From Cryobacterium algoritolerans (lineage in GTDB: Bacteria; Actinomycetota; Actinomycetes; Actinomycetales; Microbacteriaceae), in NCBI RefSeq assembly GCF_004402785.1, contig NZ_SOFP01000005.1:1-64000 (forward strand): a stretch of DNA of 64,000 bases, written 5' to 3'. Of this stretch, positions 4,340-42,498 are shown piece after piece (positions within the stretch are counted from its first letter, which is position 1; every line of letters begins with the position of its first letter). The notes under the pieces were generated by a model, which worked only from the letters and a program-made list of their open reading frames with translations, was not told the DNA's origin and made no database searches. The position numbers and the translations under genes are program-made.

Positions 4340-7300
4340 GTGTTCCTGCTCGATTCCGGCACCATCGTCTATTCCGCGAGCGACCTCAGCGCAGCGGCCG
4401 GCTGCGAGTGGGCGTTGATGCGCAGGCTCGACGCGAAGCTCGGGCGGATCGGCCCGATCGCGGAGACCACCGACGCCATGCTCACGCGCACCGCCGAACT
4501 GGGCGACGCTCACGAACTGCGGATGCTCACCCGCCTGCGGAGGACTCGCCGGGTCGTCGAGATCGAACGCCCGGCCCTCGCCGAGATAGGCTCCGCCGTG
4601 CGGGCGAGCGAGGCCGCGCTCACCGGCGGCGCCGAAGTGGTGTTCCAAGCCGCATTCTTCGACGGCCGATTCCTCGGCTACGCGGACTTCATCATCCGGT
4701 CCGACGACGGCTCGACCTACGAGGTGTACGACACGAAACTGGCGCGCAAGGCGAAGATCACCGCGCTGCTGCAGCTCGCGGCATACAGCGACCAGCTCGA
4801 ACGGATGGGCATCGCCACGGGGGAGCAGGTGCATCTCCTGCTCGGCGACGGACGCACGAGTTCGCATCGGCTGCGGGACATCCTGCCCGTCTTCCGCACT
4901 CGCCGGGCCAGGCTGGAACGCCTCGTCGACGAAAGACTCGCCGACACCGGGCCGACCGAGTGGGGCGACTCGCGCTACACCGCCTGCGGGCGGTGCGACG
5001 TCTGCGACGAACAGGTGCAGCGGCACCGCGACGTGCTGCTCGTGGCCAACCTGCGGCTCAGCCAGCGCGCGAAGCTGCGCGCCGCCGGCATGGCGACGAT
5101 CGAGCATTTGGCGGCGGCGGCCGGCCCGGTCCCCGGCCTCTCGGATGCCACGCTGCACACGCTCAGCGAGCAGGCCAGGCTCCAGATCACGCAGCCGGAC
5201 GCCGACCGGCCCGTGAACTGGGAGGTGATCAACCCGCTCGCACTTGCCGCGCTGCCTGCCCCCGACCCGGGCGACATCTTCTTCGATTTCGAGGGCGACC
5301 CGCTGTACCAGGAGGACACGGGGGGCGGCGAGGCCGGCCCGGCCGGCGTCGCCTGGGGGCTGGACTACCTCTTCGGCCTGGTCGAACCGGACGACACCTT
5401 CCGCTCCTTCTGGGCGCACAACCATGCCGAGGAGCGCCTGGCCCTGGTCGAGTTCCTGGACTACCTGCGGGAGCGGCGAGAGCGGCATCCGGGGATGCAC
5501 ATCTACCACTACGCGCCCTATGAACGCACCCACCTGCTCACCCTCGCGGCCAGGCACGGAGTGGGCGAGGACGCCGTCGACGGCCTGCTCAGGGACCACG
5601 TGCTCGTCGACCTTTACCCGGTCGTGCGGCAGGGCCTGCGCGTCGGCAGCCGCAGCTACTCACTGAAGAAGCTCGAGCCGCTCTACATGGGCAGTGACGA
5701 ACGCGAGGGCGTCGCCAACGCCGCCGACTCGATCGCCGAATACGTGCGGTCCCGGGAACTGCTGGCGGACGGTGACCACGCCGCCGCGGCGGGCGTGCTC
5801 GCCGATATCGCCCGTTACAACGCCTACGACTGCCGGTCCACCCTGCGGCTGCGCGACTGGCTGCTGCGCCGCGCCGCCGAGAACCGGGTTCCGGCGGCGT
5901 CGACCGTGGACCTGGCCTTCGACCTTCCGGTGCGCGAGCCTGACCCCGTCTACCTCGAGCTTGCCGCCCTCCTCGCCGCGGTGGCACCCGCCGACCGCAA
6001 CGCCGACCAGACCGCCCTCGCCCTGGCCGCCGCCGCGATCGACTATCACCGGCGGGAGCAGAAATCGTTCTGGTGGGACCACTATTCACGCCTCGGCTCA
6101 CCCGTCGACGAGTGGGCGGACACCCGGGATGTGCTCATCGTCGACTCCGCCACCGTACAGACGGGCTGGCACCGGGAGGGCCGGCAACTGCTCGACCGGC
6201 GCCTGCTACGGCTGTCGGGTTCGCTGGCGCCGGGCAGCTCGCTCAAGGTCGGGCAGAAGCCGTTTCTGCTCTACGACCCGCCGTATCCGCCGATCCGGCA
6301 GAGCGCCGAGCCGGGCGCGCGCACCGCGCACGACAGGGCCACCATCGTCGAGGTGATCGACGAGTCGGTGTTCCTCGTCGAGGAGATCCTCGAGCGGGAC
6401 GCACCAACCCACCACGAACTGCCGATCGCGCTGACCCCCGGCACCCCGCCGCCGGCCGGGAGCCAGGTGGGTGCGATCTCGGAGTGGGGCAGGGCCGTGC
6501 TCGGCGTCTGGCCGGTGCCGTTGCCGGATGCCGCGTTCGACCTTTTGCGGCGCCGGCCGCCGCGGCTCCGGCCGTCGTGGCGTCTGGCCGGCACGAGCGA
6601 CGCACCCGGAGGCGACTCGGAGCCCGGCCTGGCCCGGCCGCGAGACGGCGACGTGCAGACGGCCATCCTGGACGGACTGCTCCGCCTGGACCATTCCTAC
6701 CTCGCGGTGCAGGGCCCGCCGGGCACCGGCAAGACCTACGTCGGGTCGAGGGTGATCGTCGACCTCGTCGTCAAGCACGGCTGGACCGTCGGAGTTGTCG
6801 CCCAGTCCCACGCCGCAGTGGAGAACATGCTCCGCGCGGTGCTCGCCGCCGGCGTTGAAGTCGGCCTCAACCCCGACCGGGTGGGCAAGAAGGCCAGGCA
6901 GGGCGAAGAGAACAAGCCCGTTCCCTGGACCCTTCTCGACACGAAAACCTTCGGCACGTTCACCGACCGCCCCGGCGGCTGGGTGGTCGGCGGCACCGCC
7001 TGGGACTTCAGCAACGCCGACCGGTTGCCGCGCGGGTCCCTCGACCTGCTGGTCGTCGACGAGGCCGGTCAGTTCTCCCTGGCCGGCACGATCGCCGCAG
7101 CCGTCTCAGCGGAGCGGCTGCTGCTCCTGGGAGACCCACAGCAGCTGCCGCAGGTGAGCCAGGGCACCCACCCCGAGCCCGTCGACGAATCCGCCCTCGG
7201 CTGGCTCAGCGACGGGCACCGGGTGCTCCCGGCCGTATACGGCTACTTCCTCGCCACCAGCTGGCGGATGCACCCCGCTGTCTGCGCTCCGGTCTCGGCC

Positions 7301-7891
7301 CTGTCCTACGAAGGCAAGCTGCTCTCGCACCCGTCGGACCGCAGCCTGGCCGGGGTGGACCCCGGGCTGCACCCCCGGCCGGTGGCGCATTCCGCGAACG
7401 CCACCTCATCAGTCGAGGAGGCGGAGGAGGTGGTCGGGCTCGTGGCGGACCTGCTGGGGCGACCCTGGACATCCGCCGGTGTCACTGCCCCGCTCGGCCA
7501 GGAAGACGTCATCGTCGTGGCGCCGTACAACGCCCAGGTGGAACTTCTCCGCAGCCGGTTGACGGCCGCCGGCTTCGGCCTGGTGCCGGTCGGAACAGTG
7601 GACAAGTTCCAGGGCCGGGAGGCAGCGGTCGCGATCGTGTCGCTCGCGGCCTCGGCCGCCGAGGACGTGCCGAGAGGACTCGAATTCCTGCTTCTCGCGA
7701 ACCGACTGAACGTCGCCATCTCCCGGGCACAGTGGGCGGCCTGGCTGGTCTATTCGCCGGCGTTGACCGAGTCCCTGCCGACCAGCATCGAGGTGCTTAC
7801 CCAGCTGAGCGCGTTCATCACTCTGGTGACACCCGTCGCGGGCAGCGCCGGGAGGCCGACTCTGTCTGGCCTGGCCCGGCCTGCCGACTGA
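4340..7891 (+). CDS. TM0106-family RecB-like nuclease fused to SF1 helicase
   Basis: This 1183-residue cytoplasmic protein combines three modules. A PD-(D/E)xK nuclease core lies near residues 110-140 (YADFIIR, then EVYDTKLARKAK), followed by a Cys-rich patch (CGRCDVCDEQ). An RNase H-like exonuclease domain starts near residue 312 (FFDFEGDPLY). A superfamily 1 helicase has Walker A GPPGTGKT near residue 792, Walker B VVDEAGQ near 903 and motif V-type DKFQGREAAVAIVS. The GTG at 4340 was chosen because the protein then begins MFLLDSGTIVYSASDL, like other family members. Longer in-frame extensions to 4049 would run into the divergent gene. The role is probably DNA end processing or repair; a defence role has been speculated for relatives. 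Its 3' end lies inside a 17-base tandem repeat. Confidence 0.85.
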   Translation: MFLLDSGTIVYSASDLSAAAGCEWALMRRLDAKLGRIGPIAETTDAMLTRTAELGDAHELRMLTRLRRTRRVVEIERPALAEIGSAVRASEAALTGGAEVVFQAAFFDGRFLGYADFIIRSDDGSTYEVYDTKLARKAKITALLQLAAYSDQLERMGIATGEQVHLLLGDGRTSSHRLRDILPVFRTRRARLERLVDERLADTGPTEWGDSRYTACGRCDVCDEQVQRHRDVLLVANLRLSQRAKLRAAGMATIEHLAAAAGPVPGLSDATLHTLSEQARLQITQPDADRPVNWEVINPLALAALPAPDPGDIFFDFEGDPLYQEDTGGGEAGPAGVAWGLDYLFGLVEPDDTFRSFWAHNHAEERLALVEFLDYLRERRERHPGMHIYHYAPYERTHLLTLAARHGVGEDAVDGLLRDHVLVDLYPVVRQGLRVGSRSYSLKKLEPLYMGSDEREGVANAADSIAEYVRSRELLADGDHAAAAGVLADIARYNAYDCRSTLRLRDWLLRRAAENRVPAASTVDLAFDLPVREPDPVYLELAALLAAVAPADRNADQTALALAAAAIDYHRREQKSFWWDHYSRLGSPVDEWADTRDVLIVDSATVQTGWHREGRQLLDRRLLRLSGSLAPGSSLKVGQKPFLLYDPPYPPIRQSAEPGARTAHDRATIVEVIDESVFLVEEILERDAPTHHELPIALTPGTPPPAGSQVGAISEWGRAVLGVWPVPLPDAAFDLLRRRPPRLRPSWRLAGTSDAPGGDSEPGLARPRDGDVQTAILDGLLRLDHSYLAVQGPPGTGKTYVGSRVIVDLVVKHGWTVGVVAQSHAAVENMLRAVLAAGVEVGLNPDRVGKKARQGEENKPVPWTLLDTKTFGTFTDRPGGWVVGGTAWDFSNADRLPRGSLDLLVVDEAGQFSLAGTIAAAVSAERLLLLGDPQQLPQVSQGTHPEPVDESALGWLSDGHRVLPAVYGYFLATSWRMHPAVCAPVSALSYEGKLLSHPSDRSLAGVDPGLHPRPVAHSANATSSVEEAEEVVGLVADLLGRPWTSAGVTAPLGQEDVIVVAPYNAQVELLRSRLTAAGFGLVPVGTVDKFQGREAAVAIVSLAASAAEDVPRGLEFLLLANRLNVAISRAQWAAWLVYSPALTESLPTSIEVLTQLSAFITLVTPVAGSAGRPTLSGLARPAD

Positions 7892-41483: not shown

Positions 41484-42437
41484 ATGTCGTCACTGACAAA
41501 CTACGGCCAGGCGATCGCATCGACCACCATCGCGCTCCAGGAGCTCCTGGCCTCTCCGCCGGTCGGCTTGCAGGCCACCGCTCGGGCGCCCGGCGAGGCC
41601 AGGTCCGGTGTGACCGGGGCGTCGGTGAACCTGTTCCTCTACAGCGACAGTCTGATCAGCTACCGCGAGGGCAGCGCCCAGCACGGCCCGAGCCGGGTCA
41701 TCGCCGAGTTGCATTACCTGGTCAGCTCCTTCCCATCGGAGGACGGAGACACGGATGCCGCCAGCCACCGGGCCTTCGGCACCGCCAGGGCCGCGATCGA
41801 GCGGCACCCGGTGCTCACGGTCCCGGTCGGGTCGGCGGACAGTCTCCAGGTCTGGCTCACCCCATCGCCCCTGACCACCGAGGTGCTCACCGCACTCTGG
41901 CAGGCCTCCGGGGCGCCGTTGCGGTTGTCTTTCGCGGTGATGGCCTCCTTCACCCTCGACGCCGCCGAGCGGGTCGCCGTGGTCGGCACCGTGCACGACG
42001 TCGTGCAGCTCGCCGGGGCGGGAGCGATCGCCGTGTTCAGCGGCACGGATGCGGCGGCGAAGGCGGCCGCAGCGGCATCCGTGGCGCACGAGTTGGGCAA
42101 GCCCCTCGTGACCGTGCCGCTCGACTCCATCGTTGGCCACGACATGGACGAAACCGAGCGCAAGCTCACCGAACTGTTCGAGCAGCCCGAGCACCGCGGG
42201 GCGGTGCTCCTGATCGACGGTGCCGAGGACCTGTTCGGCGTGCGGCCGGAGGTGCTCGACCTGGACGACCCATACTCCGAGGTCGAGATCGGCCAGGTGC
42301 TCGACCTGCTCGGCCAGGCCCCGAGCGTCGTGATCATCGCGGTGCGGGATTCGGCCGGCGACGAGCTCGCCGACAGGACCAGGGTCGAGGTGCGTTTTCC
42401 GTCCGAGGGGCAGGCCGACTCCGCAGCGGCCGGTTGA
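41484..42437 (+). CDS. Fusion of DUF4255 (Pvc16-like cap) domain and degenerate AAA+ domain
   Basis: This 317-residue protein has two parts. Residues 1-160 match the Pvc16/DUF4255 N-terminal domain of contractile injection systems: VNLFLYSDSL, then RVIAELHYLVSSF, ERHPVLTVPV, LWQASGAPLRLSFAVMASF. Residues 180-310 follow an AAA+ ATPase closely: HELGKPLVTVPLDSIVGH, ETERKLTELF, then GAVLLIDGAEDLFG. The P-loop reads SGTDAAAKA, so the glycines are lost but K193 remains. The Walker B Glu is Gly246. ATP hydrolysis is therefore doubtful. In known systems the cap protein and the AAA+ ATPase are separate genes (Pvc16 and Pvc15). No sheath, tube or baseplate gene is in this window, so its partner system must be elsewhere or lost. 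ATG 41484 has a GGAG six bases ahead. Confidence 0.75.
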   Translation: MSSLTNYGQAIASTTIALQELLASPPVGLQATARAPGEARSGVTGASVNLFLYSDSLISYREGSAQHGPSRVIAELHYLVSSFPSEDGDTDAASHRAFGTARAAIERHPVLTVPVGSADSLQVWLTPSPLTTEVLTALWQASGAPLRLSFAVMASFTLDAAERVAVVGTVHDVVQLAGAGAIAVFSGTDAAAKAAAAASVAHELGKPLVTVPLDSIVGHDMDETERKLTELFEQPEHRGAVLLIDGAEDLFGVRPEVLDLDDPYSEVEIGQVLDLLGQAPSVVIIAVRDSAGDELADRTRVEVRFPSEGQADSAAAG

Positions 42438-42471
42438 GCCTCCGCCGGCGCCCCGAGTGTTGATGCCCGTT

Positions 42472-42498
42472 GCCGGGCCGCGCTTCAGCGCGCCCGGC
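42472..42498. terminator. Hairpin between the convergent DUF4255-AAA and DUF429 genes
   Basis: GCCGGG (42472-42477) pairs with CCCGGC (42493-42498), and CGCGC (42479-42483) with GCGCG (42488-42492). There is a single bulged C and a TTCA loop. It overlaps the last codons of the DUF429 gene and probably ends both transcripts. Confidence 0.6.

Follow-up and report, generated by a model that had tools for sequence, protein, structure and literature searches.

Introduction

In known systems, the terminator fold forms a hexameric ring at the end of a tube. In AlgoCIS, a contractile injection system (CIS), the Pvc16-type protein has been described as a hexamer that caps the inner tube (PMC8894135). 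The presence of an AAA+ ATPase and of a Pvc16_N terminator is reported to distinguish the gene regions of extracellular CIS (eCIS) from those of phage tails, and the same source states that an ATPase mutant of Streptomyces coelicolor still assembles normal-looking particles (PMC10020575); the role of the ATPase is poorly understood. Surveys of eCIS rely on scoring or grouping genes that are linked, and Pvc16_N is among their markers (PMC8213781; PMC12923769); one of them is described as demanding at least four linked genes (PMC8213781).

Here we report on one gene that joins the two eCIS hallmarks, the ATPase and Pvc16_N, with no machine found beside it; since the survey needs at least four linked genes, a single-gene fusion of this kind would be passed over by such linked-gene rules. 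The gene is located in a stretch of 64,000 nucleotides (hereafter the window) from Cryobacterium algoritolerans (contig NZ_SOFP01000005.1), a cold-living member of the family Microbacteriaceae. Each of its two domains is already known; our literature search, outside of which most subscription papers lie, found no published account of an orphan fusion whose AAA core is dead, and no paper combining contractile injection with Cryobacterium.

Domain architecture and predicted fold

A first-pass annotation of the window had proposed a single 317-residue chain with a Pvc16/DUF4255-type cap in its N-terminal half and a Pvc15-type AAA+ core in its C-terminal half, and our analysis bears out this architecture. 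The open reading frame runs from an ATG at 41484 to a stop codon at 42435-42437 (Table 1). Its start codon is conserved: the protein begins with MSSL in 15 of the 16 intact Cryobacterium copies and with MSAL in the other. Upstream lies an ABC transporter ATPase gene whose stop precedes the fusion start by 78 bases; a convergent DUF429 gene located downstream ends 47 bases past the fusion stop. A scan for a promoter and a terminator at the fusion gene found nothing.

Table 1. Features of the fusion gene and of its surroundings (positions refer to the window unless preceded by a locus label)
Feature	Position	Strand	Evidence
Fusion gene, tail-terminator (Pvc16_N) domain and pseudo-AAA core	41484..42437	+	ORF, Pfam, alignment, structure matches
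Pvc16_N match, residues 29-166	41568..41981	+	PF14065, E 2e-10; structural domain about residues 3-165
AAA large-subdomain-like core, residues 176-308, no lid after	42009..42407	+	Pfam, p97-type folds, profile matches
Degenerate P-loop SGTDAAAKA, residues 186-194 (K193 at 42060-42062)	42039..42065	+	
Walker B region VLLIDGAE, residues 241-248 (Gly246 at 42219-42221)	42204..42227	+	
C-terminal tail, residues 307-317, weakly constrained	42402..42434	+	pN/pS near neutral, variable length
47-base gap; gene for a 96-residue protein here in 14/18 Cryobacterium carriers, absent in the window	42438..42484	+	
RecB-like nuclease/helicase genes near the fusion in other genera	L155:6072-9530, L158:5852-9325, L160:10059-13481		

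The Pfam match to Pvc16_N reaches 41.1 bits and is thereby above the gathering score of 27, which two of the fusions from other genera do not attain (24.0 and 18.5 bits); in the entire genome of the window strain (G000), the fusion gene is the single gene matching PF14065. Residues 185-276 match the AAA family (PF00004, E 1.8e-5) with 25.6 bits at a gathering score of 21.2, and in profile searches the core of about residues 178-308 matches ATPases encoded by open frames of 358-1241 aa with E values down to 6e-36. When the sequence was searched against the PDB, the best 60 of the 140 rows were AAA-type chains.

AlphaFold2 models were built from a shallow set of 15 sequences, the window protein and 14 relatives; the best model has a mean pLDDT of 69.5, and the other four range from 42.6 to 49.8. 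Within the best model, ten-residue blocks score 84-91 over residues 181-250, 63 at residues 251-260 and 74-88 over residues 261-310, and those of the N-domain (residues 1-170) lie between 39 and 80. Foldseek listed AAA proteins for this model, with the Anabaena CIS cap at rank 19 (E 7.9e-5). VIA-align 2, which re-scores Foldseek's own matches and whose list consists mostly of AAA chains, placed the tail terminator p142 of phage T5 (8bcu) at the top (Z 11.9; 144 residues aligned at rmsd 3.4) and gave the third rank to the S. coelicolor CIS cap (9gts), with Z 11.3, 143 residues aligned at rmsd 4.1 and 23% identity; the monocin and PVC caps reach Z 10.6 each. These phage and CIS terminators span the N-terminal domain of the model, and p97-type AAA cores match its residues 168-307 (Z about 10.7). 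Because the model is shallow, the fold match of the N-domain rests on one of five models together with the HMM; on this basis, the N-terminal domain is predicted to possess the terminator fold that goes with membership in Pvc16_N. The annotation had named profile searches and a predicted fold as the places where the fusion could fail, and neither the DUF4255 match nor the AAA fold was wanting.

Compared with the Pvc16/Afp16/Alg16A caps (PF14065; a class-II form is encoded at L165:9263-10561 in G774), the fusion protein shares the terminator fold and the VNLFLY and LHYL stretches. Unlike the class-II CIS terminators, all nine orphan rows lack two stretches, one following VNLFLY and one preceding the next strand, and in contrast to a Pvc16 cap, no CIS was found around the fusion and a pseudo-AAA core replaces the usual C-terminal part. 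The core of the C-terminal AAA domain, including helix 2 (ETE), Walker B and what is left of the HDRYA loop, is shared with the Pvc15-type CIS ATPases (SCO4259 in S. coelicolor), from which the fusion differs in ways that we describe below.

Distribution and descent of the fusion

The fusion protein matches 19 of the 57 Cryobacterium genomes; as one of them (G025) matches in the AAA half only, 18 carriers remain, with 16 intact copies and two frameshifted ones (G007, G039), found in assemblies that are 83 and 87% complete. PF14065 matches 17 of the 57 genomes, each time at the fusion. Among 349 genomes sampled from the family, 39 match the profile at 1e-6, 27 of these via the AAA half. Full-length fusions are present outside Cryobacterium in six genomes from four genera (G538 and G457; G533 and G685; G636; G615). 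Three genomes of one genus (G644, G725, G535) possess orphan genes that, unlike the fusion, encode the N-domain only, 159 residues from a conserved start; like the fusion, their flanks hold no recognised sheath or tube gene.

No full-length copy outside the family was found in a sample of the order (248 genomes) and an overlapping sample of the class (246 genomes); the matches there cover only about residues 173-309 and lie in open frames of 358-1241 aa. A single-sequence search of 396 genomes from the phylum recovered a full-length match in the window genome only. Phage records gave no match to the fusion protein, and searches of viral contigs with two sequence patterns found no relative. Plasmid records yielded 87 matches, none of which covers more than 80% of the query, and the best 15 all begin at residue 74 or later. 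Two plasmid matches that we inspected fall within genes for ATP-binding proteins about 650-700 residues long and are for this reason not fusions of this type. Carriage by a phage or a plasmid was dismissed. Partial extra copies of the N-terminal part occur at L157:1176-1403 in G533, about 11 kb away from the full gene, and on another contig in G023 (G023:C13:21267-21446).

In most carriers, the fusion gene resides within a block that adjoins a DUF4192 gene and an aminotransferase gene; G023 and G054 have the fusion and aminotransferase genes on separate contigs. The corresponding stretch in 31 non-carriers with the aminotransferase holds no fusion. In a tree of 48 aminotransferase rows, the carriers (17 rows) fall into two clades, of 15 and two rows, and neither of these includes a non-carrier. 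The fork between these two Cryobacterium clades has a support of 86/63, and the carriers are united in 5% of 200 bootstrap trees. As the two carrier clades are not sisters, two changes are needed, either a loss or a second gain.

The domain trees included seven of the 16 Cryobacterium copies. From the CIS rows, L137 and L151 (N-domain) and L048, L040, L039 and L123 (AAA domain) were removed as duplicates or doubtful entries, and L031, L047, L049 and L050 are absent from the AAA set since the selection pattern missed them. The AAA domains of 13 fusions form one clade (100/100) against 25 CIS AAA domains. Likewise, the orphan N-domains, 13 fused and the three unfused ones, form one clade (100/100) inside the class-II part of the Pvc16 tree (class II being our own label for one side of this tree), and this clade joins the class-II row L165 with a support of 91/53. 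Taken by themselves, the fused N-domains do not make up a single clade, because the three unfused ones are placed among them; two changes are consequently needed.

In CIS loci, the Pvc16 and ATPase genes lie next to each other, with a 4-base overlap in G774 and a spacing of 1 base in G281 and G324. Pvc16 comes first in 14 of the 17 same-strand CIS pairs located within 3 kb, and the ATPase in the remaining ones (G134, G156, G373); the domain order of the fusion is that of the commoner CIS gene order. We consider the anatomy and descent of the fusion to be well supported.

The AAA core has lost its ATP motifs

According to the first-pass annotation, the P-loop glycines of the window protein were gone and K193 was kept. 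This holds for the second glycine, which is lost together with the Thr/Ser, and for the lysine, but the first glycine is retained: the loop reads S186, G187, T188, D189, A190, A191, A192, K193, A194. Walker A (GxxxxGK[ST]) is found in none of the 22 intact fusions; as remnants, G187 persists in all 22 and K193 in 21, with a Gln in G533. The annotation had proposed to examine both K193 and the fusion among relatives; the fusion itself is found in 18 of 57 Cryobacterium genomes and in six genomes from other genera. A canonical P-loop is present in 27 of 30 distinct comparison ATPase rows, the exceptions being L049, L050 and L048, the last of which lacks it in the frame that has DEAD (as framed). 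These 27 rows comprise 26 aligned in our motif table and L047; the table leaves aside L048, L049, L050 and L047, all four counted among the 30 rows, and three duplicates. L031 and L047 both have a canonical P-loop.

The annotation was right that Gly246 occupies the position of the Walker B Glu in the window protein; this exchange is, however, peculiar to the window strain among the 22 intact fusions, and the four closest relatives (G040, G012, G020, G048) have DEAE. Both the Asp and the Glu of Walker B are kept in ten of the 22 fusions, in all six from outside Cryobacterium (as DEAD) and in four of the 16 inside.

Further losses go beyond those the annotation had listed. The sensor-1 columns are gapped in all 22 fusions, as aligned, and the arginine-finger RR pair is replaced in 21 of them, including the window protein, and kept in G533 only. 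The AAA lid subdomain is absent, as the protein stops 11 residues after P306, where the lid would begin, and the N-terminal half of a Pvc15-type ATPase is missing. Since the canonical P-loop, sensor 1, the arginine-finger pair and the lid are lacking, the fusion is, judged from its sequence, unlikely to work as a normal AAA+ motor.

No sheath or tube genes were found with the fusion

The annotation had noted that no structural gene of an injection system lies in the window, and for sheath (PF04984) and tube (PF06841) this extends to the whole window genome, where neither family has a match; the same is true of all 18 Cryobacterium carriers. Our genome-wide search for a particle covered these two marker families. 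An extracellular CIS locus differs in having linked sheath and tube genes. Among nine orphan carriers from other genera, no second CIS-type AAA was found at E 1e-6 among the best candidates (at most six per genome), and no sheath or tube was recognised in the gene lists of 14-36 kb around these nine orphans.

Each marker family occurs in four of the 57 Cryobacterium genomes (G022, G025, G032, G046), all of them non-carriers, and PF14065 has no match in these four. No genome was seen to share fusion and sheath, at just four sheath-bearing genomes among 57; with so few of them, an apparent mutual exclusion of fusion and CIS is uninformative. In the two sheath-tube clusters that we viewed (L083 in G025, L084 in G046), a gene for 212-229 aa without a Pfam terminator match precedes the sheath gene; it might encode a divergent terminator.

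Both halves are under purifying selection

Comparing the 16 intact Cryobacterium copies pairwise (120 pairs) by the Nei-Gojobori method gave a median dN/dS of 0.206 in residues 1-175 and of 0.309 in residues 176-306; in none of the 11 close pairs listed does dN/dS exceed 0.331. Both halves of the fusion are under purifying selection, and the low dN/dS of the AAA half indicates that it is maintained as a protein despite its drifting catalytic residues. The tail has a median pN/pS of 0.91 (105 pairs). Across the 16 copies, 117 columns are invariant.

Neighbouring genes

No neighbour of the fusion is conserved across genera. In 14 of the 18 Cryobacterium carriers, a gene for a 96-residue protein (for example L068:9459-9746) adjoins the fusion or is found close to it, and in G538 it follows the fusion directly; the window genome lacks it, and a 25-residue remnant is left in G012. 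Within 80 chosen genomes, this gene is present in 14 of 18 carriers and 32 of 39 non-carriers of Cryobacterium, and beyond this genus in seven of nine orphan carriers and eight of 14 other family members. As it is common in carriers and non-carriers alike, its presence does not track the fusion, and we rejected it as a dedicated partner. The 96-residue protein has no Pfam match; its model (pLDDT 95.7) reads as a ferredoxin-like order of strands and helices.

A gene for a large RecB-like nuclease/helicase adjoins the fusion in G538 and G636 and is separated from it by one small gene in G457. It lies about 1.8 kb away in G685 and 34 kb away in the window (4340-7834), and it has no match in the stretches around the fusion of G533 and G615. 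With its varying distance and its absences, we take it as part of a shared neighbourhood and not as a partner.

The unfused orphan genes (L162, L163, L164; 159 aa) each adjoin what reads as a SulP-like transporter gene and have the 96-residue gene within about 2 kb.

Discussion

We favour, with some reserve, the view that the fusion is a CIS terminator which has been domesticated and bears a pseudo-AAA domain, and that it would serve as an ATP-independent binding, capping or scaffold protein. The genes of a class-II tail terminator (Pvc16) of a CIS and of the adjoining AAA+ ATPase would have merged in an ancestor belonging to the Microbacteriaceae, leaving out the C-terminal part of the terminator and the N-terminal part and lid of the ATPase. 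The product has been kept as a single gene, in Cryobacterium without recognisable sheath or tube, and selection maintains it at the protein level. Most likely it would act without ATP hydrolysis, with the terminator fold responsible for assembly or for binding of a tube-like kind, and with the pseudo-AAA core offering a binding surface for a protein partner; the published behaviour of CIS caps and ATPases suggests that it may form a ring with a new client. The proposed function is read from the ancestry of the domains. Among the three suggestions that the annotation had put forward, a domesticated remnant with a new job is the one best supported by the single AAA clade, the retention, the purifying selection and the lack of sheath and tube. 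Its proposal of a regulatory decoy for the cell's own machine finds no partner in the carrier genomes; a decoy may, with lower probability, be directed at foreign tails.

A more specific proposal, rather unlikely as it stands, would see the phage-tail-derived terminator turned into a ring protein that stands alone and needs no ATP. Its pseudo-AAA domains would form a dead motor serving as a binding platform, either to recognise and jam the tails of infecting phages or to organise a host polymer, and several genera of the Microbacteriaceae would have retained it. A stand-alone factor for defence or competition, whose terminator recognises the tail-tube ends of incoming phages or foreign tailocins and caps or jams their assembly inside the cell, with the pseudo-AAA core increasing avidity or bringing in a host factor, would agree with the resemblance of the fold not only to CIS caps but also to the terminator of a siphophage (T5 p142), and its scattered occurrence across the family is compatible with a defence gene. 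We regard it as unlikely, since PADLOC reports merely a generic AAA similarity to IetA (E 1.9e-6), the close pairs give no sign of fast evolution, and the gene is stably retained inside the Cryobacterium carrier clades. A similarly low chance falls to a factor that helps to assemble or load a particle which is encoded elsewhere in the same genome and which our markers missed, for instance a divergent or non-contractile tail-like one. Both parent proteins belong to CIS, and cargo unfolding by the Photorhabdus Pvc15 is reported, in the source cited, to have persisted after Walker mutations (PMC11495950). Against such a factor, which the annotation had linked to a remote particle, speak the confinement of the two marker families that we searched to four non-carriers and the lack of a second CIS-type AAA among the best candidates from the nine orphan carriers outside Cryobacterium.

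Slow decay of a functionless remnant of a lost system would account for the drift of Walker B in Cryobacterium, the two frameshifted copies among 18 and the partial extra copies in G533 and G023. It is disfavoured and appears very unlikely given that 16 of the 18 copies are intact and both broken ones come from incomplete assemblies, that dN/dS is 0.2-0.3 in both halves against a near-neutral tail, and that so many columns are invariant. Weak matches to NCBIfam NF042959 (26.7 bits) and to the IetA model of PADLOC (25.6 bits) might point to a variant of the anti-phage ATPase IetA/IteA, which we consider exceedingly improbable: the cut-off of NF042959 stands at 510 bits, which refutes membership, its match covers residues 187-254 only, and the core of residues 178-308 matches long actinobacterial ATPases far better. 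An artefact of chance or composition is ruled out by the matches to two curated models, the fold matches and the purifying selection.

The domesticated terminator that we favour would amount to a natural experiment, as an AAA core was kept under selection while its ATP motifs were dropped. If the fusion binds a partner, it would reveal what an AAA core does without hydrolysis.

Short stand-alone AAA cores are also encoded in another actinobacterial genus (L049:1441-1995 in G159, L050:1348-1881 in G309, and G180:C6:6119-6442). The proteins of L049 and L050 comprise 177-184 aa and match PF00004 with 37.6 and 40.7 bits; like the fusion, they have a broken P-loop (GPPGPAKI and GPPGTAKI) and end where the lid would begin, and unlike it, they have no terminator domain and carry DQAE at Walker B. 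By these sequence features, they apparently represent another instance, this time without a fusion, of an AAA core that was retained while its motifs were lost.
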